Shown here: piece by piece, positions 7,338-62,706 of the stretch
Layout: the number at the start of each line of letters is the position of its first letter
How positions within the stretch are numbered: the first letter of the stretch is position 1
NCBI GenBank assembly: GCA_018436595.1
Contig: JAHDLC010000013.1
Coordinates: 62,001-126,000, forward strand
Direction of reading: 5' to 3'
Origin: Synergistaceae bacterium
GTDB taxonomy: Bacteria; Synergistota; Synergistia; Synergistales; Aminobacteriaceae
Length of the DNA: 64,000 bases
Program-made: the position numbers and the translations under genes
The notes under the pieces: model-generated
What the model saw: only the letters and a program-made list of their open reading frames with translations
Told to the model about the DNA's origin: nothing
The model's database searches: none

Positions 7338-10244
7338 CTATTCCTCCCCTTCCCCGTTGTCCTCTTCCTCCGCCCGGAAATCCCTGCGCCTGCAGAGGGA
7401 GGAGAAAGAGCAGTATCTGCACCGGTCCGAATCGTACTCCGGCGGAAAGTCCCCCGAAGCGATGGAGTCCGCCGCCCGCTTCATGACCTCCGCTGCCTGG
7501 GACTCCAGTTCCGCGAGAGACATTTTCCCGATTTCCAGCCAGAGGGGCGCGCCGTCATGCTTCGCGCCCGCCGCCGAGCCGTCGCCCAGTCCGAGAAAGA
7601 CCGCCGCGGAGGCACTCCGCCGTTCCGGGCCTTCCCGGAGGGCGATGCTGTAGGCGGCGAGCTGGAGGCTTTTTGTGTATTTCCCTGACCTGCCGCTCTT
7701 GTAGTCGAAGAGGAGGGCGGAACCGTCGCGGAGGATGTCCATTCTGTCGCACCGTCCCCGGAAGACCGTCCCCCCGATCTCCAGCTCAGGCAGGGGGAAT
7801 TCCCGCCGCTGTTCACTCCGGGCCTCCCCGAGGCCGCTCCTCTCCATGGCGTCCTGAAGCGCCCCGAGGCGGCGGTTTTTCTCACGCTGGTCAGCCCTGT
7901 GGCGGAAGAGCCTCTGGTCCGAGAGCAGCCCGGGGTACCCGTCCCCGTAGGCGGCGTCGAAAAAGCGGTCCGCCAGCTCCTCCAGGCTTCCCCCGGAGGA
8001 AAGGTGCTCCTTCCACGCAAGCTCCCAGAGACGGTGGAACCCGTTCCCCGCCAGGTCGCGGCGGAACAGCTCCTCCGCTGCAGGCTCGAGGCCCATCCTC
8101 CGGCAGTAGTACAGGAAGGGGCAGGCGGCGAAGTCGTCCAGGCCGCTCAGATGGAAGATCTTCTCGGGCAGGGGGAGGGGTGCGGTGAGGTGACCCCTCC
8201 GAAAAAGGCCCTTTCGGGGGCTGCATTCGGCAGGAATTTCCACGCCTCTGACACACACCGTTTCTCCGACCGCCTGGGGGAGAAGATCCCCCAGGGACCG
8301 TTCATAGGAAGTTTCCGCCGGGATAAGCCAGGGGGACGTTCCGGCCTCCGCCTCAGTCACGAAGGGGGACGGCGGCAGAGGACGTCCGCTGCCGTCGGCC
8401 AGCGGGCGGACGAAAAGGCACAGCTCCCGGGCGCAGGCGGCAAGCCTCCGGAAGAGAGCTTCCCTTTGCTTCCGCTTCTCCGGCACCAGGGGGAGGTGGC
8501 TCCGCCCCAAGTCGAGGCTGTCGTGGAGGAAGCCCTTCCGGTCGTCGTTCAGCAGCGGGGATTCCCGCACCTGGCCCGGCCAGTGGGGGGCCGTGGCGCC
8601 GAGGAAGACCCACACCGCCGCCGAAGTCAGCACCGGCGGCGTTCCCTGGTGAACCGCCATGGCCGGGGAGACCGGCGGCGAAGTCCTCGTGGAGGCCGTC
8701 TCAGCCCACCTGGCCAGGAAGGCCGCAGCCTCTCCTCCCCGAAGGACCGCCCTGCCCGAATCCCCGAGGTCCCGGACCAGGTCGCGGAGAGCCCGCTCCT
8801 TTTCCCCGGCCTCCAGCACGGCCACGTTCACCGTCCGAAGCATTCCGTCCAGGGAGGGAAACTCCCTGGCTTCCGTGATGAGCCCCTTCATCTCCTCCCT
8901 GTCGGGGGCCAGTTTTCCCAGGGCCGAAAGCAGCTCCTCGGGACGCCCCCCTGCGGTTAGAGTGTCGGTGAAGGCGAGAACCCTCCTGAACGCGCGCAGC
9001 GGGGTGTTCCGGGACGGCGTTTTTTTCGCCCTTTCCCCGAGGAAGTCCAGCCACCCCTTCCGTCCGCAGGGAAGGGCGGCGGCGAAGTCCTCCCGGGGAA
9101 AGCCGAAGGGCGAGAAGAGAAGGCCGGAAAGGAAATCCGCCGTCTCTCCCGGAGGCCACCCCTCGGAGGCCAGGTCCAGGGCCCGGAGGGCGCTTTTCCA
9201 GAGGATCGTCTCCGAGACGAGCACCCCGTCCTTCGGCGAGAAGGGCAGCCCGTACCGGGTGAAACTCTCCGCGGCGGAGGCCGTTTCCTCCCTGTCGCCG
9301 CAGATGCCGATGGCGGACCACCCCGGAAAGGGGAGTCCCGTGGATTCCGCGATCTTCCCCTCGCCCGCTGACCAGAGAAGAAGCTCTCTGGCCAGGGTGT
9401 CCGAGGCCAGACGAAGATCCCCTCCCGCCATGGAGAAGGAAAGGGCCGGTCCGCTTCCCTCCACCGGCGTCACCGACGCCTCGGGGAACTGGTCCGCCGC
9501 CGTGTAAAAATCGCCCGGGCCGCACCAGGGAACGAAAAACTCCATTTCCGCTCCGGCCTCGAGGAGCTGCCGCAGAAAACGGAGCTGCCCCGAGGCAAAG
9601 CTCAGGAAGCCCACGGCTGTGACCCGCAAGGCTTTCGCCCGTTCTCGGGCCGTTTCAGACTCCGCAAGAAGGTCCCGCCCGAGGGAAGGGATCTGGGCGC
9701 TGTCCGCGAGGTTCCGCACTTCCAGGAGGGCCGTGTAGTCCCGGTAGATCCGGCAGAGGATACCTGACTCGTCGTCCAGCCGGGAGCATCCCTCGTCCTG
9801 AGGACACCCCGCGCACCCCAGCGAACCGGCCAGGGTCTCCGGGGGCACGTCCTCCCGCAGAAGCTCCCGGACCGCCCCTCCGGCAAGGTCGAGGAACCCT
9901 TCCGAAAAGACTCCCGGCGGCAGAGATTCGGCAAACCGCTCCCGCAATGAGCTAATGATGCTCCTCAGAAGCAGCCAGTGGTCCGGAGGGTCGATCTGCG
10001 CCCGGGGCTTCTCTCCCGCCCCCGCCTCGAGAAGGGCCCGGTAGAGGTCGTCCCAGATCCAGACGTTCCGCTCCCGGATCCTGTTCCAGGAAAGGCCCTC
10101 CGGAGCGGAACACCCTTCGGCGGAAAGCATGTCCAGGAGAAGGGGTCTGTCGCGGTTTGACGGTACCAGGAACACCCGTCCGGGATCACCGGTCCGGTCC
10201 GACAGAAGACGGGAAATATCCGCAGGATTGCGGTAGGTATGCAT
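7338..10244 (-). CDS. addB: AddB-like PD-(D/E)XK nuclease subunit
   Basis: 968 residues from the ATG at 10244. The frame is open to 10421, but that extension crosses a good promoter and reads as non-coding. The C-terminal nuclease domain shows LLFDYKSGRSGKYTKSLQLA (about residue 848). The iron-sulfur cysteine set is a Cys near 708 (DFAACPFLYYC) with C942, C945 and C951 (CRYCSFSSLC), as in Bacillus AddB. No intact Walker A is visible at the N-terminus. It forms a heterodimer with the product of the downstream gene, 3 nt away. The start is uncertain: AGGAGG lies 15 nt before the ATG, and CTG codons lie closer. Confidence 0.8.
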   Translation of the reverse strand: MHTYRNPADISRLLSDRTGDPGRVFLVPSNRDRPLLLDMLSAEGCSAPEGLSWNRIRERNVWIWDDLYRALLEAGAGEKPRAQIDPPDHWLLLRSIISSLRERFAESLPPGVFSEGFLDLAGGAVRELLREDVPPETLAGSLGCAGCPQDEGCSRLDDESGILCRIYRDYTALLEVRNLADSAQIPSLGRDLLAESETARERAKALRVTAVGFLSFASGQLRFLRQLLEAGAEMEFFVPWCGPGDFYTAADQFPEASVTPVEGSGPALSFSMAGGDLRLASDTLARELLLWSAGEGKIAESTGLPFPGWSAIGICGDREETASAAESFTRYGLPFSPKDGVLVSETILWKSALRALDLASEGWPPGETADFLSGLLFSPFGFPREDFAAALPCGRKGWLDFLGERAKKTPSRNTPLRAFRRVLAFTDTLTAGGRPEELLSALGKLAPDREEMKGLITEAREFPSLDGMLRTVNVAVLEAGEKERALRDLVRDLGDSGRAVLRGGEAAAFLARWAETASTRTSPPVSPAMAVHQGTPPVLTSAAVWVFLGATAPHWPGQVRESPLLNDDRKGFLHDSLDLGRSHLPLVPEKRKQREALFRRLAACARELCLFVRPLADGSGRPLPPSPFVTEAEAGTSPWLIPAETSYERSLGDLLPQAVGETVCVRGVEIPAECSPRKGLFRRGHLTAPLPLPEKIFHLSGLDDFAACPFLYYCRRMGLEPAAEELFRRDLAGNGFHRLWELAWKEHLSSGGSLEELADRFFDAAYGDGYPGLLSDQRLFRHRADQREKNRRLGALQDAMERSGLGEARSEQRREFPLPELEIGGTVFRGRCDRMDILRDGSALLFDYKSGRSGKYTKSLQLAAYSIALREGPERRSASAAVFLGLGDGSAAGAKHDGAPLWLEIGKMSLAELESQAAEVMKRAADSIASGDFPPEYDSDRCRYCSFSSLCRRRDFRAEEEDNGEGEE

Positions 10245-49700: not shown

Positions 49701-50591
49701 TTATTCCACATACCTGGGAAGGTACTCCTTCTCAAGCTCCCTGAACATTTCAAAACCCACAAGATTCTTGAAGTCTGCGAACGGAGCGACGAGTTCAGTC
49801 CGTCCCTCTGCGATCCTGTCGCCCTTTATGGCATCGAGGTAGTCCTTCATTCCCTTTACTGCCGCGAACAGGGGACCTACTGGAATGCTGACCCTTCCCA
49901 CACCGATCTCCCTGAGCCTGTCAATTGAGACCAGGGGTGTTTTCCCTCCTGAAACGGCGTCCATGAGGTTGATGCTTACAGGAGCCCTGATCTCTTTCAC
50001 CGCCAGCTCGATCTGCTCCACGGAACGGGGCGCCTCCACGAAAATCAGGTCCGCCCCGGCCTCTGCATAGGCATTGGCCCGTCGGATGGCCTCTTCGATC
50101 CCCGCGACAGCGATGGCATCAGTACGGGCGTTGAGGACGAAATCAGGATCGATCTCGTCCTTTACGGCTTTGCAGGCCTTTATTTTCAGCACCATTTCCT
50201 CCATGGGAATGATCTGCTTTCCCTCGAGGTGACCGCACCGCTTCGGGAACACCTGGTCCTCGATGTTCATTCCCGCGGCCCCTGCCTTGATAAACTCTCT
50301 CGTGACATACATGGCGTTGATGCTGTTGCCGTACCCGGTATCGGCGTCGGCCATGACGGGAACTTTAACCGCATCCACGATATTTTTCGTGAAGTGGACC
50401 ACGTCGCTGAAGCCTATGAACGCCATGTCCGGAAGCCCCAGGTAGGTTGCTGAAAGACCGAATCCGCTCACCTGGAGGGCCCTGAAGCCGGCCTGTTCTA
50501 TGAGTTTTGCGGAAATGGCGTCATGAGCCCCGGGGCAGACGAGTGCTTTCCTTTCGAGGATCATGTTCCTGAGCAGCGTTGTTTTTTTCAT
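49701..50591 (-). CDS. Isocitrate lyase / PEP mutase-family lyase (PrpB or 2,3-dimethylmalate-lyase-like)
   Basis: 296 residues. The ribosome binding site is GAGAGGGG. Family hallmarks: CPGAHDAISAKLIEQAGFRA, the Mg-binding block PVMADADTGYGN, EDQVFPKRCGHLEGK with the catalytic cysteine C119, and LNARTDAIAVAGIEEAI. KRCGH marks lyases rather than mutases. These enzymes split a 2-hydroxy di- or tricarboxylate to pyruvate (or glyoxylate) and a second acid. With a LeuCD-like hydro-lyase and PrpD-like genes beside it, retro-aldol cleavage of a branched malate- or citrate-like acid is likely. Confidence 0.88.
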   Translation of the reverse strand: MKKTTLLRNMILERKALVCPGAHDAISAKLIEQAGFRALQVSGFGLSATYLGLPDMAFIGFSDVVHFTKNIVDAVKVPVMADADTGYGNSINAMYVTREFIKAGAAGMNIEDQVFPKRCGHLEGKQIIPMEEMVLKIKACKAVKDEIDPDFVLNARTDAIAVAGIEEAIRRANAYAEAGADLIFVEAPRSVEQIELAVKEIRAPVSINLMDAVSGGKTPLVSIDRLREIGVGRVSIPVGPLFAAVKGMKDYLDAIKGDRIAEGRTELVAPFADFKNLVGFEMFRELEKEYLPRYVE

Positions 50592-50615: not shown

Positions 50616-52529
50616 TCAGTTCTTCTCCGACCCGGCAGTCCCGTTGTCCGGGAGCATTTTTCTGTCGATAACGAACGCTGTTCCGACGACGGCAAGGCCT
50701 ATGAGCGAATGGGTGGTTCCCGGGAAAAGAAGAAGCATGCCGCCGATGACGAACGAGATGCACCGAACGGGGTTCAGCAGGCATTCCTTGTGGCTGAACA
50801 TGCCGTAGGCTATGGAGATGGCCCCGATGAATCCTGTTATGCCGTGGCTGAGGATGCTTGTCCATGGGGCCCTGCCCACGAGGGCAGGATTGAGGGCGAA
50901 GAAATAGGGGAGGATGAATGCCACGATCCCGAGCCGTACCGAGAAAAAGCCTGTCTTGACCCAGTTTGCCTTCGCAATTCCTGCCGCTGCGACGGCCGCG
51001 GTGCATGTGGGAGGCGTCACACCTCCGAGGATCGCCCAGTAGATGAAGAAAAGATGTGCTGCCACAGGATCAATGCCAAGCTTGAGAAGGGGAGGCACCA
51101 GGATGGATACGGAGAGAACATATGTGGGGACCACCGGAAGGGACGTGCCGAGGAGGAAGGGGACAATTGTGGCGATTAGCAGGGAAAAGTAAATGTTCGT
51201 GCCGCCTATCTGCAGAATGACTCCGCTTATTTTTGGCGCGATTCCCGTCAGGCCTATGAGGTTGACCAGCATGCTCACCGATACAAGGATCGGGACTATC
51301 TGGGCTACGTCCCTTCCTCCTTCGGAGAGGGCGGATACGATGAGCTTCATGGTCTCCTTCATCTTTCTTTTCAGAATCCCCACCAGCAGAAAGACCGCCA
51401 GGGCCGAGACGCATGCGTAAAAACCTGCCAGCTGAAGGGGCTGCCCTATGGCGATAAGGTACAGCAGAACAGCTGTGGGGATAATAAGCCCGGCCATTCT
51501 TTCCAGGGTAAGGATGTCTTTCCACCTTGGAATCTCCTCGGGAGGAAGCTTGTCGATGCCCATGCGCACTGTCCGGAAATGGACTCCGCTGAACACCCCG
51601 GTGTAGTACAGCAGACAGGGAAGAAGGGCATACCCGATGATGTGGAAATAGGATATGTTGAGAAACTCCGCCATCATAAAGGCGCTGATACTCATAATGG
51701 GAGGAGTAATCCCGCCGCCGGATGAAGCGATGGCTTCCACCGCAGCGGCAAATTCCGGCCGGTAGCCCAACCGTTTCATCAATGGAATGGTATAGCTGCC
51801 CGTGACCATGACATTTGCCACCGAGCTTCCCGATATGCTGCCGAAAAGTGCGCTCGAGACCACAGCCGCTTTAGCAGGTCCGCCTGTATATTTGCCTGTA
51901 ATGGCAAGGGCTATGTCGATGAAGGTTTTTCCTCCCCCTGTAGCTGACAGCAGAGAGCCGAAGATGATGAACATGGAGATGAACGTTGCCGACATGCCCG
52001 TGACGCTGCCGAATATTCCGAGAGGGGAGTAATAAAGTGAGCTGAGCACAAACTCGAGATTGATTCCCTTCAATTTCCACATCCCGGGGAAGGATTCTCC
52101 TGCAAAGATGTAGCCCATCAGGAGGACGACCATAAGCGGTATGGCCAGCCCCACGGACCTTCGGGCGGCCTCCAGGACGAGGAGCGTGAGGGTCCCTCCG
52201 AGGATCAGGTCGAATAATGACGGCCCGGTGGTGCCCATGTAGATATCCAGTGCCTTGATGAATGCGTTCAGGTTTGCTGCCAGAAGAACCGCAATCAGAA
52301 GCAGGTCGTACAGCGAAATTCCCTCATCCGGGGGCTCTTCTTCTCTCCTGGTTCGGAACGGAAAGTAGAGAAAACCTATGGAGAGGCCGAATGCAACGTG
52401 GATTGCCCTGAACTGGATGTCGAGGAGACTCGTCAGATAGATCGGGGCCAGGAGCTGAAAGACGGCGAGAAAAAAGCCGAGCGTGAAAATGACCTTTGTC
52501 TTTATCCGGCCGATTGAAGTTAAGCTCAC
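50616..52529 (-). CDS. TRAP transporter fused permease (4TM/12TM, TAXI type)
   Basis: 637 residues from a GTG with GGGAGGG upstream. The N-terminal ~4 membrane segments are the small DctQ-like subunit and the rest the large DctM-like subunit (ALFGSISGSSVANVMVTGSY, ASSGGGITPPIMSISAFMMA, the second-half repeat GTSLPVVPTYVLSVSILVPP and WAILGGVTPPTC). The fused form is the usual partner of TAXI binding proteins, one of which is encoded 72 nt upstream. It imports an organic acid using a sodium or proton gradient. Confidence 0.93.
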   Translation of the reverse strand: MSLTSIGRIKTKVIFTLGFFLAVFQLLAPIYLTSLLDIQFRAIHVAFGLSIGFLYFPFRTRREEEPPDEGISLYDLLLIAVLLAANLNAFIKALDIYMGTTGPSLFDLILGGTLTLLVLEAARRSVGLAIPLMVVLLMGYIFAGESFPGMWKLKGINLEFVLSSLYYSPLGIFGSVTGMSATFISMFIIFGSLLSATGGGKTFIDIALAITGKYTGGPAKAAVVSSALFGSISGSSVANVMVTGSYTIPLMKRLGYRPEFAAAVEAIASSGGGITPPIMSISAFMMAEFLNISYFHIIGYALLPCLLYYTGVFSGVHFRTVRMGIDKLPPEEIPRWKDILTLERMAGLIIPTAVLLYLIAIGQPLQLAGFYACVSALAVFLLVGILKRKMKETMKLIVSALSEGGRDVAQIVPILVSVSMLVNLIGLTGIAPKISGVILQIGGTNIYFSLLIATIVPFLLGTSLPVVPTYVLSVSILVPPLLKLGIDPVAAHLFFIYWAILGGVTPPTCTAAVAAAGIAKANWVKTGFFSVRLGIVAFILPYFFALNPALVGRAPWTSILSHGITGFIGAISIAYGMFSHKECLLNPVRCISFVIGGMLLLFPGTTHSLIGLAVVGTAFVIDRKMLPDNGTAGSEKN

Positions 52530-52601: not shown

Positions 52602-53618
52602 CTATTTTTTGTACTCCGGAGGAATGAACCGCTCCGGAACGTCGATTCCCTTTTCCTTCGCATACCGTATGAGCCCTGCATGGGCTGGTACAACGTCGTC
52701 TCCTGCGTTCTTGAAGTAGTCTCCCACCGGGTCGAAGCCCTTTATTGGCCCGTAGGCCGCGGCGATTTCGTCAAAGCCTTCCACGTAGGCCTTTACGATC
52801 TGGTAGCCCACTTCTTCCGGGAGGGAGGCTGTGGCGACAGCTCCGGCGATGGGGCACTCCTCCCATATGGGGCCTACGTCCGGAAATTCCCTGATGCTTC
52901 CCTTTTCACGCTTGAGGAAGGTCATGTAGGGGATCTTTTCCTGGATCTTCTTTACGTCTTCCTCGGAATATCCCACGACGGTGAGCGGTGTCGTGAGATT
53001 GACCTCGATGAGGGAGGCGTCCATGCTATTGAGGCCGCTTGATTTCTGGAGGCCGACAATCCGGTTCTCCTTGAGCGCGGTTATTGCATCCCCAAGGGCT
53101 GATGGTACGAGCTGGATATTGTGTCCGAGGATCTTGTCGTACTGCATGACGTATGCTGCAGATGCCGAACCGGGAATGCCGGGACAGAACCGTTTGCCCT
53201 TAAGGTCGGCAAAGGATGCAACACCCGAATCTTTGCGGACGTACAGCCTGTCGGCAAAGATGTTTCTCAGGAAGAGCCACCGTACATCCTTGAACTGCTT
53301 GCCTTCAAAACCTTCGATCCCCTTGTAGAGCTGAAGCGATCCGGGAAGGTCAATGGCCATTGCGAAATCGAACACTCCCGCACTTATTTTCCTGAGGTTG
53401 TCCATACCGGCACCGCTTTCGACGACGGTAACCTGGATGCCGTTGTCGGCCTTGTTGATGACGTTGGCAGCTGCCACGCACCAGGCATACACGCCCGAAG
53501 TGGAGGATGTGCTCCCCATGTTCAGATGGATTTCAGCCTGAGCAGTACCCGCAAATAGAAGGACTGCCGCCAGAACTGCAATGATCAATCCTGAAAAAAT
53601 ACCGTTCCTGATTTTCAT
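52602..53618 (-). CDS. TAXI-family TRAP transporter substrate-binding protein
   Basis: 338 residues. ATGs at 53624 and 53618 are both possible, and spacing from GGAGGG favours 53618. The signal peptide MKIRNGIFSGLIIAVLAAVL ends near TAQA-EIH. TAXI motifs: LNMGSTSSTSGVYAWCVAAA, VVESGAGMDNLRKISAGVFDFA and LKGKRFCPGIPGSASA. It captures the substrate outside the membrane and delivers it to the fused permease. Characterised TAXI ligands are glutamate-, 2-oxoglutarate- or carboxylate-like. Confidence 0.92.
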   Translation of the reverse strand: MKIRNGIFSGLIIAVLAAVLLFAGTAQAEIHLNMGSTSSTSGVYAWCVAAANVINKADNGIQVTVVESGAGMDNLRKISAGVFDFAMAIDLPGSLQLYKGIEGFEGKQFKDVRWLFLRNIFADRLYVRKDSGVASFADLKGKRFCPGIPGSASAAYVMQYDKILGHNIQLVPSALGDAITALKENRIVGLQKSSGLNSMDASLIEVNLTTPLTVVGYSEEDVKKIQEKIPYMTFLKREKGSIREFPDVGPIWEECPIAGAVATASLPEEVGYQIVKAYVEGFDEIAAAYGPIKGFDPVGDYFKNAGDDVVPAHAGLIRYAKEKGIDVPERFIPPEYKK

Positions 53619-53727
53619 TTTCATATCCCTCCTGTCCGTTTTTCTCTTTTCGCCTTTGAGAAAATATCTCCGCAGGGGTACGCACATACTCTTCCTGAAC
53701 CACACTCCTTTCGCTTTTCCTCCGGGG

Positions 53728-54234
53728 TCACCGGGGAAGGATGTATTTCCCGTTCTTTTTCAGGTATTCAACAAGCCCGCCTTCCCTTAGTATGTCGAGC
53801 ATCACGGGAGACAGGGGCTCGAGGGGTATCCTTTTTCTCTTTTCTGCCAGTTCGACAAAATTCTGCCCGATATTGACGGTAACCGTATCATCCTGGGTGA
53901 TGCCGTCCGTGTCGCAGAGAAAGCATGGAATACCCTGGTTGATCGCGTTGCGGAAAAATATGCGGGAATAGGATTTTGCGAGGATGGCTGAGATCCCGGC
54001 GTACTTGATGGCGATGGGGGCCTGTTCCCGGGACGATCCGCATCCGAAGTTGCGTCCCGCGGCCACGATGTCTCCCGGGCGGACTCTCTTGGAAAAGCCG
54101 GGGGCTATGTCCTCGAATACATGTTCCGCAAGGCTCGTGAAATCGAGGGTTTTCGTGTACTTCCCGGCGATGATGTAGTCGGTGTTGATATTGTCCCCAA
54201 AGGTATGGGCTCTTCCGGCCAGTATGTTTTCCAT
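53728..54234 (-). CDS. LeuD/DmdB-like small subunit of an aconitase-family hydro-lyase
   Basis: 168 residues from the ATG at 54234, with GAGGAGG 6 nt upstream overlapping the end of the large-subunit gene. The swivel domain shows GDNINTDYIIAGKYTK, PGDIVAAGRNFGCGSSREQA and SYSRIFFRNAINQG. The short archaeal-type form (about 165-170 residues) is shared by isopropylmalate isomerase, homoaconitase-like and 2,3-dimethylmalate dehydratase enzymes. No leuA or leuB is present, so leucine synthesis is unlikely. Confidence 0.9.
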   Translation of the reverse strand: MENILAGRAHTFGDNINTDYIIAGKYTKTLDFTSLAEHVFEDIAPGFSKRVRPGDIVAAGRNFGCGSSREQAPIAIKYAGISAILAKSYSRIFFRNAINQGIPCFLCDTDGITQDDTVTVNIGQNFVELAEKRKRIPLEPLSPVMLDILREGGLVEYLKKNGKYILPR

Positions 54235-54245
54235 GTCTGTCCTCC

Positions 54246-55511
54246 TCACTGCTTCCGCGACAGGTACGGCCGCGGATCGGTGATCCGCCCCTCGAGGGCG
54301 CTGGCGGCGCACGTGGCGGGAGAGGCGAGGTAGACCCTGGACTTGTTGTTCCCCATTCTGCCCCTGAAATTTCGGTTGGCGGTGGAGAGGACGTTTTCGC
54401 CGTCTCCCGGGACGCCGAGGTGCGTGCCCGGGCAGGGTCCGCATCCGGGTGGAAGGATTGTGGCTCCGGCCTCCACAAGCTGAAGGATAATGCCTTCAGC
54501 CAAACCATCAGCCAGTACTTTTCTCGAAGGAGGGCAGACAAGGAGCCGGCAGTTTGGGGAAACATGGTTCCCGGCAAGTATCCGTGCCGCTATCCTGAGG
54601 TCGTCGAGCCTTCCATTAGTGCAGGTGCCGATATAGACCTGGCTGATTTCCGTCCCCGCAGCCTCCGTTACGGGTACGGCGGCGTCCACTGAATGGGGGA
54701 GACTGACCTGGGGGGGGACGTCGGGTGCGTACATTTCAATCTTCCCATCGAACCGGGAATCCTCGTCATCGAATGCGGGGATGCCTTCGCTTTTCCCCAG
54801 TGCCCTCAGGTGGGCTGCCGTCGTATCATCCGCCTCCATCAGTCCGGCTTTCGCGCCGCATTCAATGGCCATGTTGCTCAGGGTCATCCGTTCCGAAAGG
54901 GACATTCCCCGAACAGTATCCCCGCAGAAAGAGAGGGCGAGATAGTCGGCGCCGTCGGAGCCTATTTTTCCGATGAGATGGAGCATAAGGTCCTTGGCGC
55001 ATGTCCCCTCCTCCATCGGTCCCCGAATATGGACCTTCATTGTTCCGGGAACGCGGAGCCAGAGCTTTCCCGTCAGCATGACCCCGCTCATGTCGGTGGA
55101 ACCTATGCCGAAGGCAAACACGTTGAGGGCGCCGTAGGTGCATGTATGGGAATCGGCCCCCACTGCAAGTCCTCCGGGAGAAACAAGGCCCCTCTCGACA
55201 ACGATCTGGTGACAGACTCCGTCCCCCACGTCAAAAAGTGGTATCCCCTGGGCCGATGCAAAGTTCCTGAGAAGTGCGTGAAGGTTGCTGATCCGCTCGT
55301 TGGGACTGGGTGTGGCATGGTCGAGGACGACGACCATTTTTGAAGGGTCCCAGACCCGCTCTTTTCCATATTCTTCAAATGCCTGTATGGCGATGGGACC
55401 GGTGGTGTCATGGATCATGGCCAAATCAACATCGGCGATGACGAAGTCACCTGCCCGTGCATCCACCCCCGAATGGGCAGATATGATCTTTTCAGCCGCA
55501 GTCTTTCCCAA
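54246..55511 (-). CDS. LeuC/DmdA-like large subunit of an aconitase-family hydro-lyase
   Basis: 421 residues from a TTG start with AAGGAGG 8 nt upstream. The [4Fe-4S]-binding cysteines are in IGTCTNGRLDD and GCGPCPGTHLG. Other blocks are VLDHATPSPNERISNLHALL, VGADSHTCTYGALNVFAFGIG and RNFRGRMGNNKSRVYLASP. It performs reversible dehydration/hydration of a 2-hydroxy acid with its small subunit. In Eubacterium barkeri nicotinate degradation, similar subunits (DmdAB) act with an ICL-family lyase, the same pairing as here. Confidence 0.92.
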   Translation of the reverse strand: MGKTAAEKIISAHSGVDARAGDFVIADVDLAMIHDTTGPIAIQAFEEYGKERVWDPSKMVVVLDHATPSPNERISNLHALLRNFASAQGIPLFDVGDGVCHQIVVERGLVSPGGLAVGADSHTCTYGALNVFAFGIGSTDMSGVMLTGKLWLRVPGTMKVHIRGPMEEGTCAKDLMLHLIGKIGSDGADYLALSFCGDTVRGMSLSERMTLSNMAIECGAKAGLMEADDTTAAHLRALGKSEGIPAFDDEDSRFDGKIEMYAPDVPPQVSLPHSVDAAVPVTEAAGTEISQVYIGTCTNGRLDDLRIAARILAGNHVSPNCRLLVCPPSRKVLADGLAEGIILQLVEAGATILPPGCGPCPGTHLGVPGDGENVLSTANRNFRGRMGNNKSRVYLASPATCAASALEGRITDPRPYLSRKQ

Positions 55512-55535: not shown

Positions 55536-56921
55536 TCAGTCTGATGCTGACAGGAGTCCTGTCAGTTCGTTGAAGCTTTCCAGGTCTTCCATGTGAAGGA
55601 CGGCCTCGATGATCCTGTCAACACGGTTCTCGTCGTCGATTGCTTTTCCGGCAAGCGTGCGGAACTTCCAGAGCAGTTCCTCGGAGGAGAAGGGATTCTT
55701 CGGATGCCCCTTGGGGAAGGTCTCCTGGAGGTTGAAGACCCGGCCGTCGTTCAGGTGGACGTCGACTTTCACCGTGTAGCGGAGGTGCCGGGGCAGTTTT
55801 TCGATCTCTTCGTCGTGAACCACGTCCACTTTCTTCGCGAACTCGAGAATCCTTGGATTCCGGATTTTTTCCTCGGTGAACTGATCGATGAAAGCGTTCC
55901 CCTCGAGAAGGGTGACGGCGCACACGTATGGGTGGCTGAGCTGGGCGGCTACAACGCTGGTTATGGCGTCGGCGTCCACGGAGTACTTGTGGGTGATGGA
56001 CGTGGTGTGGGCCACGACCTTTGCGATATCGTCAGGCTGAATGTCGGGGTGGTCCTCCCGGAACTTCCGGAGTGCACCTATAGTAGTGTGCTTGCTTCGG
56101 CAGGTGGAGTAGAACTTGAGGCCGATGCCCATGAGCTCCCACCGGTTCCCGAGCTCTCCGCTGGTGCGCTCCACATCGTACACGTCATCGGTGAAGCAGT
56201 TGTAGAATCCTCCGAACTTGTTCTCGAATACGTCCTCGATGCCCGTGAATCCTTTCTGTGCGAGGAGTGCCCCGATGATCGCCCCTTCGGATGACTTGGA
56301 CGGAACGATCCTCTTGGCCATGGAGGCGAACTGGACTGCCTGGAGTCCTCCTGACCAGTTCCCCGCGATGCCCATGGCATGCCCCATCTGTTCGGGAGTC
56401 AGGCCGAGCATGTTTCCCACTCCGGCAGTGGAACCGAAGGGACAGCAGGTCCCCGTGTTGTTCCAGCCCTGGTGGGCGATTTCCATGCCTACGGGTGCGG
56501 CTACCCGGCAGGAGATTTCGTAGGCCAGGGCCGCTGCAGTGAGGAAGTCTTTGCCGCTCATGTTTCCGAGCATTTCGGCGAAGGCGGTGATGCACCCGAG
56601 TACCCCGGTGGAGACGTGGATGATACCGTCGGTATGGGTATCATCCAGCTCGAATGAGTTTATTGCCGAGCCGTTGAGCATCATGGCGTTGATGACGGAC
56701 GTCTTCCGGCCCGTTCCCCATATGGACGCCTCTTCCCTGTCACTCATGTTCTCGAGGACGTCCCGGTAAATCTGCATCCAGGGCGTAGTGGAGCCGAAAA
56801 GGCCGCATCCGTAACAGTCGAGCATCACTCTTTTCAGGTGATCGAGGACCTCGGCCGGAATGTCCTCGTACCTCAGCTCTGATGAAAATCTGGAAATCCT
56901 TTCGTTAATGGTATCCATCAT
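55536..56921 (-). CDS. MmgE/PrpD-family protein, paralogue 1
   Basis: 461 residues from the ATG at 56921, with AAGGGGG overlapping the stop of the preceding gene. PrpD-family features: an all-helical N-domain with SAINSFELDDTHTDGIIHVS, a glycine-rich segment GTCCPFGSTAGVGNMLGLTP and a C-terminal domain with FYSTCRSKHTTIGAL. Family members include 2-methylcitrate dehydratase and cis-aconitate decarboxylase. This is one of three divergent copies in the cluster. The specific substrate is unknown. Confidence 0.88.
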   Translation of the reverse strand: MMDTINERISRFSSELRYEDIPAEVLDHLKRVMLDCYGCGLFGSTTPWMQIYRDVLENMSDREEASIWGTGRKTSVINAMMLNGSAINSFELDDTHTDGIIHVSTGVLGCITAFAEMLGNMSGKDFLTAAALAYEISCRVAAPVGMEIAHQGWNNTGTCCPFGSTAGVGNMLGLTPEQMGHAMGIAGNWSGGLQAVQFASMAKRIVPSKSSEGAIIGALLAQKGFTGIEDVFENKFGGFYNCFTDDVYDVERTSGELGNRWELMGIGLKFYSTCRSKHTTIGALRKFREDHPDIQPDDIAKVVAHTTSITHKYSVDADAITSVVAAQLSHPYVCAVTLLEGNAFIDQFTEEKIRNPRILEFAKKVDVVHDEEIEKLPRHLRYTVKVDVHLNDGRVFNLQETFPKGHPKNPFSSEELLWKFRTLAGKAIDDENRVDRIIEAVLHMEDLESFNELTGLLSASD

Positions 56922-56937
56922 GGTCCGTTCCCCCTTC

Positions 56938-58299
56938 TCAAATGTGCAGCATCTCCGTGAAGGAAGCGATTTCCCCACGGGTATGGATTGCCATGGCAGC
57001 CGCCATGATCTCTTCAGCCTTTTCAGGGGAGATAACTCCCCCCGTGACGTCCCGGAATTTTTCGAAAAGCTCCTCGTCGGACATGGGGTTTTCAGCATCC
57101 CCCTTCGCGTGGTCGATCCTCGCGGAGGCCGAATTTCCTTTTTTGTCCCGGATCTCCACGATCATGGAACGGGGATTGGGGTAGAGTTTCTGGATCTCTT
57201 CGTCCACCTCGATCCGGACCATGTCCGAGACTCTTCTCACTTCAGGGTCTGCGATCGCCTCCTCCTCGTATTCCCGGATTCCGGCTTTTCCCCGGACCAG
57301 GATGGAAGCGATGCCGTACTGGATGCTGAGACGGGCGTGGAGGGGAGAACGGTAGTCAGGAATGTCCGAGCCCTGTTTTGCGTTCCGGTGGGTGCGAACC
57401 ACGATGGACTCGATACCCTCCGGGGGGAAGGGGTGCTGTTCCAGATCTTTCTGCGTGGCCTCAATGGCATAGTGTACGTACCTGCAGGAGCAGTAGGGCT
57501 TGAAATAGATGCGCAGGAAGTGCCAGTCCTTCCCGAGATCCCTGTCTACGAGGGCTGTGTCTGCGCTGTCGGCGAAGCAGTGGAAGAAACCGAGCTTTCC
57601 CTCGAGGATTTCGGCAGGCCCCGTCATGCCGTCACGGGCGAGCATAGCAGCGAGGATACCGTTCCTGGCGGCGTTGCCCGGATGAACATGCTTTGATATG
57701 GACCCGTCGATCTCGTACTGGTTGATCCCCGACGCCAGGCTCCCGGCAATTCCAAGGGCCTGGACTGTCAGGTCCGGGGAGAGTCCGAGGATTTTCGCCG
57801 CCGCGGCCGTTGTGCCGAATGACGCGATGGTGCCGGTCGGGTGGAATCCCCTGAGATAATGGCCCGGATTGATGGCGGTCCCTATGCGGAGCGACACCTC
57901 GTAGCCCGCCGTAATGGCTTCCAGGAGCTTTTTCCCCGATATTCCCTCCGCCTCACCCAGGGCAAGGCATGCTGGGATAATGGAAGCGCCGGGATGATAG
58001 GTGGCGTACTTCGATCCGTCGTCCAGCTCAAGGGCATGGGCCGCCATTCCATTGACAAATGCGGCGGTCATGGGGGCTCTCCGGAGTGAACTCCCGGCCA
58101 CGACAGCTTCTTCCTTTTCTCCGAGTCTCTCGGCGAACTTTCTCCCGGATTGTCCGCTCCGGGACAGCCTGCTTCCCGCAAGAAGGGCTCCCGTGGTGTC
58201 GAGAAGGCATCTTCGTGCCTGAGAGACGACTTCCTCCGGCAGCCGGTCACAGACAAGGGAGGATGAAAAAGCGGCAAGTTTTTCGGTGAGGCTGGCCAT
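56938..58299 (-). CDS. MmgE/PrpD-family protein, paralogue 2
   Basis: 453 residues from the ATG at 58299. The ribosome binding site GGGAGG lies in the end of the DUF4387 gene, 8 nt upstream. Signatures: MAAHALELDDGSKYATYHPG, GFHPTGTIASFGTTAAAAKI, HVHPGNAARNGILAAMLA and a YCSCRYVHYAIEAT segment. The three PrpD-like proteins are clearly different in sequence, so they probably act on different intermediates or form hetero-oligomers. Confidence 0.88.
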   Translation of the reverse strand: MASLTEKLAAFSSSLVCDRLPEEVVSQARRCLLDTTGALLAGSRLSRSGQSGRKFAERLGEKEEAVVAGSSLRRAPMTAAFVNGMAAHALELDDGSKYATYHPGASIIPACLALGEAEGISGKKLLEAITAGYEVSLRIGTAINPGHYLRGFHPTGTIASFGTTAAAAKILGLSPDLTVQALGIAGSLASGINQYEIDGSISKHVHPGNAARNGILAAMLARDGMTGPAEILEGKLGFFHCFADSADTALVDRDLGKDWHFLRIYFKPYCSCRYVHYAIEATQKDLEQHPFPPEGIESIVVRTHRNAKQGSDIPDYRSPLHARLSIQYGIASILVRGKAGIREYEEEAIADPEVRRVSDMVRIEVDEEIQKLYPNPRSMIVEIRDKKGNSASARIDHAKGDAENPMSDEELFEKFRDVTGGVISPEKAEEIMAAAMAIHTRGEIASFTEMLHI

Positions 58300-58307
58300 G
58301 GATCGTC

Positions 58308-58634
58308 TCAGTCCTCCCAGGGAACCTCGAGGGAAAAGAGAGGGGCGTACTGCTGGCATCCGTACACGTCCGTCTCCCCCGGGCCTCCGCTGGGGATATT
58401 GCGTTTTATGTTGGCCTTGATTCCCATGCCGGGATCGAAGAACATGAAATCAAGAATCTTGTCCTCGGGAAGCCTGTAGGCGTGGGCTATGGCCTTCTGC
58501 GTAACGGCTCCCGACTGTTTCACCCTTTCGTAGACCTGCCGGTCGGCGAAGATGATCTCAAGGGTGATCATGAAGCTGCCCGCGTTCTTGCTCCTGATCG
58601 TTCTGGCCAGGCTGCAGATGTTCATGGTCTTCAT
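58308..58634 (-). CDS. DUF4387 protein (AtuA-associated)
   Basis: 108 residues from the ATG at 58634, overlapping the stop of the preceding PrpD gene (ATGA). The sequence fits DUF4387: LARTIRSKNAGSFMITLEII near the N-terminus and DKILDFMFFDPGMGIKANIK. This domain is found fused or adjacent to AtuA/DUF1446 proteins. Its biochemical function is unknown. Tight coupling on both sides indicates it works with the PrpD-like and AtuA-like proteins. Confidence 0.88.
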   Translation of the reverse strand: MKTMNICSLARTIRSKNAGSFMITLEIIFADRQVYERVKQSGAVTQKAIAHAYRLPEDKILDFMFFDPGMGIKANIKRNIPSGGPGETDVYGCQQYAPLFSLEVPWED

Positions 58635-60028
58635 GGCGTATGAAACCTCCCGAAATGGTCGAGTATTTGCCCGTACCCGGCGGCGCCGGGGTCGGACTCT
58701 ATGCATATCTCCCAGAGGCCCGATACGAATTCCTCCGGATAGTAGGGGGCCAGCATGGCCGTCAGCTTTTCCCGAAGGTCCCCGTCGGTGACGGGGTTCT
58801 CCGGTTCGCCCTTCGCCACGGGGATACCGTTTTCGACGCTCCTGCCGTCCTTCAGGACGAGGCGCAGCCACGCCCCCCGCTCCTCGGGGTACAGGGCGTT
58901 CATGTGCTCGTCCTCCTCGATCGTCACGGCCGAGGCGACACGCCGCAGTTCTTCATCGGCGAGCAGTTCGGGCGTATAGTCCTGGAGGGTGACGTTTCCC
59001 TTCCTGAGGGCCACGGCGAGGGAGAAGGGCAGACTGAACATGGCTTCCTCGAAGGTGGCGGGAAGGAAGATCTGCCCCACTTCCACGATGCCGAGCCTGT
59101 AGGTCTTGACTCGGATGGATTCCACATCCCGTTCCGTGCAGTCCAGAACCTTCCTGGCTTCCCTCACCAGGTCGATGGCTGCGTGGCAGTGCCTGCAGGT
59201 GGGGTAGAGCTTCGTATAGGTCAGCAGGATCTCCCACCGCTTCCCGAGGTCGCCGGTGAGGGCTTCCTCAGAGTATTCCCCGGCGCACATGGCCTTGAAC
59301 CATCCGTGCTCTCCCTCGAAGAGGGTGCGGGGTGACTTTGCGCCCCGGGAGGCGAACTCCGCCGAAAGCACTCCTGCCAGTGCGGATTTTCCGGGCTGCA
59401 GGGGCTTGATCCCCGGGTGGTCGTGGAGCATCTCCTGGAGCCCGGCGCTCTGGAGCCCTCCCATGGACATGGCGTAGGCGAACTGTTCGCCAGCCAGGCC
59501 AAGGATGGAGGCGCACCCGGCGGCGGCCCCGATGGAGCCGCAGGTTCCCGTGGAGTGAAAGCCCCGCTTCAGATGGGATGGATTAATGGACCGTGCCGCC
59601 CTGAGCATGGCATCGTACCCGATGGCGATTCCCTTCAGGATGTCGGGGAAGGAGGATTTCATCTTCTCCCCCATGGCCAAGACGGCGGGAATGACCGCCA
59701 CGGCGGGGTGGGACGTGCCCCACCGGTGCCCGTCGTCCAGCTCGATGGAGTGGGCCATGATCCCCGTGGCCAGGGCCGCCCAGGGCGCCGGAACTTTGCT
59801 TCCGTCGCAGAGAATGGTGGCTTCCTCCCTGCCGCCGGTCTCTCTGGCGTACTCTATGGCGATGGACGCCAGCTCTCCTTCGTGAAACCCGGCGGCGGTC
59901 TCGCAGAGGAAATCCATGAGCACCCTCCGGGCCTTCTCCAGGACGGTTCCGGGTATGTCCCCGGGACCGAGGGAGGCGTAGAAGTCCGCCAGTTCCGTGA
60001 GCAGGGTCTTCGTCCCCTGGACTTCCAT
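58631..60028 (-). CDS. MmgE/PrpD-family protein, paralogue 3
   Basis: 465 residues, beginning 3 nt after the AtuA-like gene. Signatures: MAHSIELDDGHRWGTSHPAV, RGFHSTGTCGSIGAAAGCAS, LQPGKSALAGVLSAEFASRG and YPTCRHCHAAIDLVREA. The C-terminal end carries extra acidic sequence. It is coupled to DUF4387 by ATGA overlap, so the two products are probably made in equal amounts and may form a complex. Confidence 0.88.
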   Translation of the reverse strand: MEVQGTKTLLTELADFYASLGPGDIPGTVLEKARRVLMDFLCETAAGFHEGELASIAIEYARETGGREEATILCDGSKVPAPWAALATGIMAHSIELDDGHRWGTSHPAVAVIPAVLAMGEKMKSSFPDILKGIAIGYDAMLRAARSINPSHLKRGFHSTGTCGSIGAAAGCASILGLAGEQFAYAMSMGGLQSAGLQEMLHDHPGIKPLQPGKSALAGVLSAEFASRGAKSPRTLFEGEHGWFKAMCAGEYSEEALTGDLGKRWEILLTYTKLYPTCRHCHAAIDLVREARKVLDCTERDVESIRVKTYRLGIVEVGQIFLPATFEEAMFSLPFSLAVALRKGNVTLQDYTPELLADEELRRVASAVTIEEDEHMNALYPEERGAWLRLVLKDGRSVENGIPVAKGEPENPVTDGDLREKLTAMLAPYYPEEFVSGLWEICIESDPGAAGYGQILDHFGRFHTP

Positions 60029-60031
60029 GGC

Positions 60032-61420
60032 CTACGCTCCCGACACGGTCTCGAAGGTATACCGGAAGATGCCGGGATCCAGTGGATCCTTCAGGGTGAG
60101 CAGGTGATCCACCGTCCACTGGTAGCACTTGTTCTTCGGGAAAAGCGGCTCATCCGTTATGAGGGCCACCGACCCTCCCGAGGAGTTCATCTGGCCGGGG
60201 TAGCTCATGTAGAAGAAGCGGAACTTGGCGCACTTTGCGACGGAGGTGGCCAGCTCGAGGTCCTTCGAGATGACTTCGATGACGATGGCGATCTCGTGGG
60301 ACTGAGTGATCTCCACGGGCTCGTTCTCCTTCATGACGGCATTCTTTCCGTAGGGGTGGAAGAAGAGTTCGTACTGGTCGTCCCGGGCGGGCCCGATGAT
60401 CTCGGAGACCTTCTTCCGCGTGTCGGCGAGGATCTGGTCGAGGTGGGCGATGGCCCGCGTGTCCCGGATGCCCACGAGATGGTATACTCTATGACCGGCC
60501 TCTCCGGCCCCCTCGAGCTTGACCTTGTAGCTGCCGTCGGGGGAGGGGACGAAAAGGCTGCCCGTGACTTTGCAGATCCGGTCCGTCTGGGCCTCGTATT
60601 TGCTGGCGTGCATGTCGAGGATGCCGCCGGGGAGGGCCTGGATGAAGGGGTTGGTCCGTTCGTACATGGAGTGGGCCGCCACGCTGTGGGGGGTGGCCTG
60701 CTGGTCGGGGTGTATGGGCTCGATGGTGAAGTGGTCCTCGTACACCGTCCCGATGATGGATTCCTTCACCTTCTGGGGCCAGCAGACGAGGGAGGCGCAT
60801 TCGGCGGCCTTCCCCATGTGGAGGCTCACGCCCCTGTCGAAGCCTTTGAAAATCGGGTAGGCGGCAAGCACCGCGTCGTCGCAGGCCCGCCCGGCGATGA
60901 TCACGTCCGCTCCCTTTTCCAGGGCGTGCATGATCTGTTCCACTCCCATGCTGGCCGTGACGTTGGTGGTGTTGTCAAGGACGTCGTCCGTCAGGGGGAA
61001 GGACGCCCCCAGGGGTTCCGTTGCCCCTTTCCCCACCCGCTCCCGGAGAGTCTCCATGGGTATCTGGGAGTAGATGAGGGCCATGGTGAAGGGCTCCATC
61101 TTCCGTTCCTTCGCCACGGTGCGGATGATGTCACCGTAAAGGTTGACCCCCCTGTCCGTGCCGGTGGTGCTGCATGAGCCCACGATCATGGGGACCTTCT
61201 TCTTCCTGGCTTCCACGAGGGTGATCTCGAGGTCGTGACGCTCCCATTCGATGGGGTTGTGGGGCATGTCCGCCCCCAAAAACGTGGGGCCGGCATCGGC
61301 AGTTCCCGCGTCGGCCCCAAAGCAGTCGATTTCCCTTTTGACACCTTCGTAGAAGGTTCCCTTCTCGATGATGTTGTCTCCGAGGTTGCCCGTTGAAACC
61401 AGCAGAGAAACTTTTCTCAT
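60032..61420 (-). CDS. AtuA-like acyclic terpene utilisation family protein (DUF1446)
   Basis: 462 residues from the ATG at 61420 (GGAAGGAG upstream). The frame is open a little further, but that part overlaps the promoter. DUF1446 features: DCFGADAGTADAGPTFLG, VPMIVGSCSTTGTDRGVN, DVIIAGRACDDAVLAAYPIF and a C-terminal domain with FFYMSYPGQMNSSGGSVALI. AtuA is needed for citronellol/geraniol catabolism in Pseudomonas, but its reaction is unknown. First gene of the operon. Confidence 0.9.
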   Translation of the reverse strand: MRKVSLLVSTGNLGDNIIEKGTFYEGVKREIDCFGADAGTADAGPTFLGADMPHNPIEWERHDLEITLVEARKKKVPMIVGSCSTTGTDRGVNLYGDIIRTVAKERKMEPFTMALIYSQIPMETLRERVGKGATEPLGASFPLTDDVLDNTTNVTASMGVEQIMHALEKGADVIIAGRACDDAVLAAYPIFKGFDRGVSLHMGKAAECASLVCWPQKVKESIIGTVYEDHFTIEPIHPDQQATPHSVAAHSMYERTNPFIQALPGGILDMHASKYEAQTDRICKVTGSLFVPSPDGSYKVKLEGAGEAGHRVYHLVGIRDTRAIAHLDQILADTRKKVSEIIGPARDDQYELFFHPYGKNAVMKENEPVEITQSHEIAIVIEVISKDLELATSVAKCAKFRFFYMSYPGQMNSSGGSVALITDEPLFPKNKCYQWTVDHLLTLKDPLDPGIFRYTFETVSGA

Positions 61421-61472: not shown

Positions 61473-61488
61473 CGGAAATTGATTGCCG
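61473..61488. promoter_or_regulatory. Imperfect NrpR-type operator in the catabolic leader
   Basis: CGGAA-ATTGAT-TGCCG: the same geometry as the perfect site at 61636-61651, with one mismatch in the right arm. It lies roughly +10 to +25 relative to the predicted minus-strand transcription start, a roadblock position for a repressor. Confidence 0.5.
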
Positions 61489-61498
61489 AAAATGTGCG

Positions 61499-61533
61499 GG
61501 GTAATGATACCCATAATAAAGGCTGATTGTCAA
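61499..61533 (-). promoter_or_regulatory. Strong promoter of the catabolic operon, with palindrome over the -10 box
   Basis: On the minus strand, consensus TTGACA (61528-61533) and TATCAT (61504-61509) with an 18-nt spacer. The palindrome GGGTA-ATGA-TACCC (61499-61512) straddles the -10 box and could be a second protein-binding site. Confidence 0.75.
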
Positions 61534-61635
61534 GCTTGGAAAAAAATGATATAAAACAACCAGTATTTTTAAAGGCTATGAGTTTTTATGCAGGCGGGAA
61601 AGAGGCTTTTTTGTTACACGAACTGGAGATAAAAT

Positions 61636-61651
61636 CGGAATTACATTTCCG
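61636..61651. promoter_or_regulatory. Perfect NrpR-type operator upstream of the regulator gene
   Basis: CGGAA-TTACAT-TTCCG matches GGAA-N6-TTCC, the operator described for NrpR in methanogenic archaea, with an additional C-G pair. It lies 45 nt before the regulator start and overlaps or abuts candidate promoter elements (TTTCCG with TAAAAT at 17 nt), which suggests autoregulation. Confidence 0.65.
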
Positions 61652-61695
61652 TAATTTCAAAAGACAGATAAAATCTTTTCTTTATGGAGGTCAAG

Positions 61696-62706
61696 ATGCC
61701 GGAAATCGAAGAATACCCCGAAACAGTGGTAGAGATTATGAGGACGCTGTACTTTTCAGGGAAGCTTCAGCCCTCCGCAGATCTCCGGAACTCTCTCGAA
61801 AAACGGGGGATAGCGGTAGAAACCAGGACGATACGGTATCACCTGACGAACCTTGAAAAGAGCGGCTTGGTTCGTCGTTTCGGAAATAAGGGAGTTGTGC
61901 TTACCGAAAAAGGAATCGGCGAAGCGAAAATGCTGCTCGTATTCGATCGGGTCGGTGGACTGGCCATGGAAACCGAGCGCCTGTCCCTTGACTGTGATTA
62001 TTCTTTTGCAGTGAACCGGGGGACTATTATGGTCAATACACTCCTGGTGGAAGAGGCGGAAACATCGAGGGCAATTGAAATTCTGAAGGAGACGGCAGCG
62101 AGCGGTGTGATTCTCTCCTCCCTGCTTGGGGTTCTGAAACCCGGGCAGAGAATGTGGAACTGTGAGGTTCCGGAGGGAAAGAATGCCTTTATCGGAGTGT
62201 CGAGCAGAAATTACGACATTATTCTTCAGCAGGCCCGTATACCCACCGAGACAAGCGCAACATTCCTGTACAGGGTTGAAGACCATAAGCCGAAGGGTAT
62301 AGCGGAAATAATATCCCATTCCGGGACGACGCTGAGTCCGGGTGAACTTCTCATCAGGGGAAAATACACCTCAGTTTCGGAGGTAGTGAGGACGGGAAGC
62401 GGTCTTGTCACTGCGGCTATTAAAACATTTCCTTCTATTTTCTTCGACGAGGTGCAGAAAATCTTTGATTGCCTTGAAAAAAGCCTTTTTTCTGGCACAA
62501 TCGAATTAAAAGCCCAGATCCCTCAGGCCTACAGGATGTCTTACAAGGACAGGAACAGGGGGTACATGCTGATTTACGGAGGGGCGAATTTCTTTGCGCC
62601 TCTCGTGGAGCAGGGGATCGCCGGAGAGCTTTCCATAAGCCACAGCATCTACCAGAGCGAGCGCATGAAGCCGGTAGACCTTTTCAGTGAAGATTTCCCG
62701 GGATAA
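61696..62706 (+). CDS. NrpR-like transcriptional regulator (winged HTH plus DUF128)
   Basis: 336 residues. I take the ATG at 61696, 5 nt after GGAGG. The in-frame ATG at 61684 would put the binding site inside the gene. Residues ~8-75 are a winged helix of the NrpR_N type (RTIRYHLTNLEKSGLVRRFG, GVVLTEKGIGEAKM). Residues ~80-330 form one DUF128 domain (DCDYSFAVNRGTIMVNTLLV, GLVTAAIKTFPSIFFDEVQ). Archaeal NrpR represses nitrogen-assimilation genes and is released by 2-oxoglutarate. Here the target is probably the divergent carboxylate operon, with an oxo acid as likely signal. A terminator follows. Confidence 0.85.
   Translation: MPEIEEYPETVVEIMRTLYFSGKLQPSADLRNSLEKRGIAVETRTIRYHLTNLEKSGLVRRFGNKGVVLTEKGIGEAKMLLVFDRVGGLAMETERLSLDCDYSFAVNRGTIMVNTLLVEEAETSRAIEILKETAASGVILSSLLGVLKPGQRMWNCEVPEGKNAFIGVSSRNYDIILQQARIPTETSATFLYRVEDHKPKGIAEIISHSGTTLSPGELLIRGKYTSVSEVVRTGSGLVTAAIKTFPSIFFDEVQKIFDCLEKSLFSGTIELKAQIPQAYRMSYKDRNRGYMLIYGGANFFAPLVEQGIAGELSISHSIYQSERMKPVDLFSEDFPG

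Follow-up and report, generated by a model that had tools for sequence, protein, structure and literature searches.

A candidate NrpR-type local repressor with archaeal-type operators at a carboxylate catabolism operon of Synergistota

The window analyzed here is a 64,000-nucleotide stretch of DNA from a Synergistaceae bacterium, and all coordinates refer to it. A catabolic operon occupies the minus strand, divergent from a regulator gene. The first operon gene encodes an AtuA family (DUF1446) protein (60035..61420; PF07287). It is followed by an MmgE/PrpD family protein (58631..60028), a DUF4387 protein (58308..58634; PF14330, 2e-35), and two further MmgE/PrpD family proteins, one at 56938..58359 that, like the first, is assigned by profile match, and one at 55536..57098 whose true start is probably inside the open frame. 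Next are the large subunit of the aconitase/isopropylmalate-isomerase family (54246..55511) and a LeuD/DmdB-type small subunit (53728..54444; TIGR02087, 3e-58) with a true start probably at about 54230. A TAXI-type TRAP transporter binding protein (52602..53705; TIGR02122) and a fused TRAP permease (50616..52529; TIGR02123) precede the last gene, which encodes a methylisocitrate/dimethylmalate-lyase-type C-C lyase with a KRCGH motif (49701..50591) that is 75% identical to the lyase adjoining the regulator in genome G011. No equivalog model above cut-off gives an exact enzyme name for the operon. Read through the established enzymology of its gene families, the operon fits a pathway in which a branched di- or tricarboxylic acid is taken up, dehydrated or hydrated, and cleaved at a C-C bond. 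An earlier note made from the letters of the window had proposed a carboxylate-catabolism setting, and the profiles confirm an operon of AtuA, PrpD, aconitase-type, TRAP, and lyase genes.

The regulator gene (61696..62706, plus strand) begins with an ATG at 61696, with GGAGG at 61686-61690 ahead of the start, and encodes an NrpR-like protein of 336 residues, characterized with Pfam, AlphaFold2, and Foldseek. The protein consists of a winged helix (HTH_12, residues about 12-75) and an effector domain with a single NRD1_2 copy (residues 92-325). The earlier note had ascribed to it the NrpR layout of winged helix and DUF128 and had suggested an HMM search for NrpR_N and DUF128; both domains pass the curated cut-offs, PF08461 (HTH_12) with an E-value of 1.9e-12 and 47 bits against a cut-off of 21, and PF01995 (NRD1_2, DUF128) with an E-value of 7e-48 and 163 bits against a cut-off of 25. 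The AlphaFold2 model has a mean pLDDT of 85.3, and its sole clear Foldseek match is 3nek, the archaeal protein MJ0159 (E 2.3e-13, TM 0.82 of the target). Archaeal NrpR, as in Methanococcus maripaludis and M. jannaschii (MJ0159), likewise combines a winged helix with NRD and the 3nek fold; it differs from the Synergistota regulator, which has one NRD domain. Third in the Foldseek ranking for the NRD model comes 2pif (UPF0317; E 1.3e-4, probability 1.0, TM-score 0.3), a possible remote fold relation at the level of the model.

The source genome encodes no NRD1_2 protein besides the regulator; a named-genome scan returns one locus only, and a plasmid search returns none. A Synergistaceae bacterium relative shows 94% identity over its 62 regulator residues and 97% identity over AtuA. 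The regulator frame of genome G037 (L014:1246-2934) extends about 220 low-complexity residues beyond the NRD domain, which is probably a missed stop or an effect of the draft assembly.

The region between the divergent genes contains the two inverted repeats that the earlier note had described. The regulator-side operator, CGGAATTACATTTCCG, is a perfect CGGAA-N6-TTCCG at 61636-61651 and falls within the transcribed leader of the regulator gene itself, and the AtuA-side operator, CGGAAATTGATTGCCG, is an inverted repeat at 61473-61488 with one mismatch to the same pattern. The consensus promoter claimed upstream of the AtuA-side site is also present, a sigma-70-type TTGACA-N18-TATCAT with 11 of 12 consensus matches (61533-61504, minus strand), and this operator begins 15 bp downstream of its -10. 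The regulator has a promoter-like site of its own in the divergent direction, TTGTCA-N17-TATAAA (61527..61555, plus strand), and the -35 elements of this site and of the operon promoter overlap (TTGTCAA/TTGACAA). The same overlap, with TATAAA at a spacing of 17, occurs in G025, G026, G028, G041, and G024 and is not found in every genome. The palindrome AATTAC-N6-GTAATT, which overlaps the regulator-side site, was dropped as a second candidate since it does not recur as a palindrome in other genomes.

The archaeal NrpR operator has the consensus GGAAN6TTCC (PMC2723118), and the Synergistota sites are of the same type. Judged from sequence, an NrpR-type operator appears to stand at the target promoter, which is of the sigma-70 type and not an archaeal promoter. 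Within the window, GGAA-N6-TTCC with at most one mismatch occurs 88 times against 50 expected, mostly inside genes. The longer CGGAA-N6-TTCCG, with at most one mismatch, has 545 matches in the 3.2-Mb genome, 3.3 times the number of a reversed control; codon usage or palindrome bias are candidate reasons for this excess. At the genome-wide rate, the chance of two such sites in about 260 bp is about 1e-3. Because the motif is common throughout the genome, the case from a single genome is weak alone and significance was not claimed on that basis; the decisive evidence for the operators is their conservation between genomes.

Proteins with NRD1_2 above cut-off occur in 24 of 188 Synergistota genomes, and for 16 of these 24 the intergenic region separating the regulator from its divergent neighbor was extracted. 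The earlier note had held that its reading would fall if the inverted repeats were not conserved in related genomes. They are kept: CGGAA-N6-TTCCG with at most one mismatch is present in 14 of the 16 regions (0.5 expected, maximum of 3 in 300 shuffles), and the perfect motif in seven, against 0.04 expected, where the expectations come from first-order shuffles that ignore shared ancestry and several genomes are close relatives. An open enumeration of all 5-mer inverted repeats with gaps of 0-12 across the 16 regions ranks CGGAA with gap 6 first. In the most distant genome, G004, the inner GGAA-N6-TTCC is kept, with T/A at the outer positions. Alignment of 42 sites reveals matches in 98-100% at G2, G3, C14, and C15. 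Information content averages 1.5 bits per half-site column in the AtuA-side and regulator-side sets, compared with about 0.4 in the 20-base flanks, values slightly lowered by the G027 row, which is one base out of register; a third set of sites from six close relatives is little informative, as its flanks are conserved too. This conservation spans about a dozen genera in several families. The AtuA-side operator is present in all genera examined except G036, the G103 assembly reading N at this place, and the regulator-side operator is absent from some genomes. In G036, the regulator adjoins TAXI-TRAP genes, there is no close AtuA, and the intergenic region has no operator.

The position of the AtuA-side operator is also conserved. 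In 14 genomes, the AtuA-side operator starts 9-16 bp after the -10 hexamer and therefore spans roughly +2 to +25, a typical position for a repressor. In several genomes, 72-85 bp separate the regulator -10 from the regulator-side operator downstream of it. The spacing between the two operators is 150-170 bp and once 308 bp, with no constant phase, and DNA looping between them is unsupported because of this variation.

Regulator and operon occur together. Among the 188 Synergistota genomes, 24 harbor the regulator, 23 a close AtuA, and 22 both, where about three would be expected if the two were independent. The operators stay with the operon after relocation of the regulator gene: an operator is still found before AtuA in G020, where the regulator is on another contig, and in G178, where it is about 1.2 kb away, and an operator is present in G027, whose contig stops short of the regulator. 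Family f3 has the operon divided into two divergent parts, AtuA-PrpD-DUF4387 with further genes and isomerase-TAXI-TRAP-lyase-regulator; the AtuA/AcnL divergent region holds two sites of the GGAA-N6-TTCC type, one near each promoter, and no operator precedes the regulator. A hairpin, ATCGGAGAGCT...CTCTCCGATT, is conserved between lyase and regulator in this family (L048, L077-L080, L049) and may be a terminator or an attenuator. Genome G017 carries a different operon of Peptidase C26, an AtuA-like protein (39%), and the regulator (L163:7367-8104), with a perfect operator before it (8121-8136), so the regulator subfamily may control a second AtuA operon type.

The regulator looks local. The extended consensus CGGWARTNNAYTNCCG, a pattern drawn with the site at 61473-61488 in view, has this site as its one match in the whole genome, and this consensus is also obtained from the other genomes. 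The stray matches examined in G017/G018, G037, G033, G089, G116, G118, G028, and G103 are inside coding sequence, and so are those examined elsewhere, except where they precede an AtuA-type operon. A wider regulon was rejected on the grounds that CGGWARTNNAYTNCCG occurs once in the source genome and the inspected stray matches are coding. The operator is found at the AtuA operon and in the regulator's own leader only, and not at nitrogen-assimilation genes: the source genome has no such operator before glnA and no gene for an Amt-type ammonium transporter. The single extended match, the lack of a glnA site, and the lack of Amt together suggest the local role.

These observations make it likely that the regulator is a dedicated local, autoregulating repressor, from an NrpR subfamily specific to Synergistota, that controls the AtuA operon with a carboxylate of the pathway as its effector. 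The regulator, presumably as a dimer, would bind the CGGAA-N6-TTCCG sites. Protein on the AtuA-side operator, just past the -10, would block RNA polymerase at the AtuA operon, and the regulator-side operator in its own leader would provide autoregulation. Once the TAXI-TRAP transporter has brought in a di- or tricarboxylic acid, the repressor would be released through its NRD effector domain, and the releasing ligand is probably a pathway carboxylate rather than 2-oxoglutarate. The repressor may serve as a handle on the substrate of the AtuA/DUF4387/PrpD pathway, with the releasing ligand likely being the substrate or an intermediate. Local repressors of tri- and dicarboxylate operons from the GntR, LysR, and MarR families have the same arrangement of a divergent gene, an operator at the promoter, and one target; their effector domains are unrelated to NRD. 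NrpR is described as a nitrogen repressor of the Euryarchaeota, with homologs noted in certain bacteria. The setting and the subfamily are the new elements here. The overall interpretation of the earlier note, a bacterial NrpR homolog with archaeal-type operators in a carboxylate setting, is supported by the conservation of the operators, the NrpR-type architecture, and the neighboring genes.

Outside Synergistota, NRD1_2 regulators are found in 45 of 198 genomes in the phylum of G310, in three of three in the phylum of G358, and in six of seven in the phylum of G265. About half of 41 sampled loci from outside Synergistota adjoin glnA (glutamine synthetase), a PII gene, or a glutamate-synthase-like gene. 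These neighbors suggest that a nitrogen role is probably common to the archaea and these bacteria. The targets of archaeal NrpR are nif, glnA, and amt, whereas the Synergistota regulator is predicted to act on carboxylate catabolism. The nitrogen-type bacterial proteins share HTH_12, a single NRD1_2, and the RT-x-RYHL recognition-helix region with the Synergistota regulator and differ from it in their gene neighbors and in phylogeny. The Synergistota proteins do not group with the archaeal and nitrogen-linked bacterial NrpRs and form a separate clade (branch length 2.5, support 100/100); MJ0159 groups with the nitrogen-type proteins, its exact place being unsure owing to a long end branch.

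The two domains differ in the extent of divergence. Among helix-turn-helix positions fixed in both the nitrogen-type and Synergistota groups, 12 are the same and three differ, all conservatively. In the effector domain, the corresponding numbers are 21 and 14. At the 14 differing positions, MJ0159 carries the nitrogen-type residue at nine and the Synergistota residue at none; the nine replaced residues (window numbering) are C169, T172, R201, Y208, D214, F219, R243, E244, and A314, and we infer a connection to the 2-oxoglutarate pocket. Effector-domain identity to MJ0159 is about 20% for Synergistota and 35% for other bacterial NrpRs. It is tentatively suggested, with confidence a little short of even, that the subfamily kept the archaeal-type operator and exchanged 2-oxoglutarate for a branched di- or tricarboxylic acid, thereby turning a nitrogen sensor into a substrate-specific catabolic repressor. 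With the job changed and the DNA site kept, the regulator/operator pair would test a change of ligand under a fixed DNA code.

A regulator that still senses 2-oxoglutarate is the alternative that survives best, although it is unlikely. Low nitrogen would raise 2-oxoglutarate and open the operon, thereby coupling carbon and nitrogen metabolism. Archaeal NrpR is indeed released by 2-oxoglutarate (PMC4902934, PMC11957540), the Synergistota protein belongs to the same family and has the same operator type, and the products of the pathway, pyruvate and related acids, enter central metabolism. However, the nine residues from C169 to A314 are replaced by other fixed residues, the source genome has neither the glnA operator nor the Amt transporter, and there is a single regulator per genome, linked to one operon. 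The sequences appear to offer no support for 2-oxoglutarate as the inducer of this regulator, and the long-branched, systematically substituted effector domain is indirect evidence against it.

It is distinctly improbable that the regulator is an activator or acts mainly through the overlapping divergent promoters. Their overlapping -35 elements give this explanation some ground, since the two promoters cannot be occupied at once, but wherever a promoter is recognizable the operator follows the -10 and covers about +2 to +25, and sigma-70 promoters are as a rule activated from upstream sites. Least probable is that the inverted repeats are chance or the sites of another factor, with the regulator binding elsewhere; the frequency of the motif in the genome favors this, yet the motif persists in roughly a dozen genera from several families while its flanks do not, it is identical to the archaeal consensus (PMC2723118), and it co-occurs with the regulator, all of which argues against this explanation.

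The same operator was also sought at the nitrogen-type bacterial regulators, and a perfect GGAA-N6-TTCC was not found before these genes. A few of these loci carry GGCAA-N2/4-TTGCC palindromes in the vicinity of the regulator (L074:9790; regulator/promoter regions of L068-L070 and L074-L076), which are perhaps a different operator of nitrogen-type NrpR. In G211, one perfect CGGAA-N6-TTCCG lies downstream of a glutamate-synthase-like gene.
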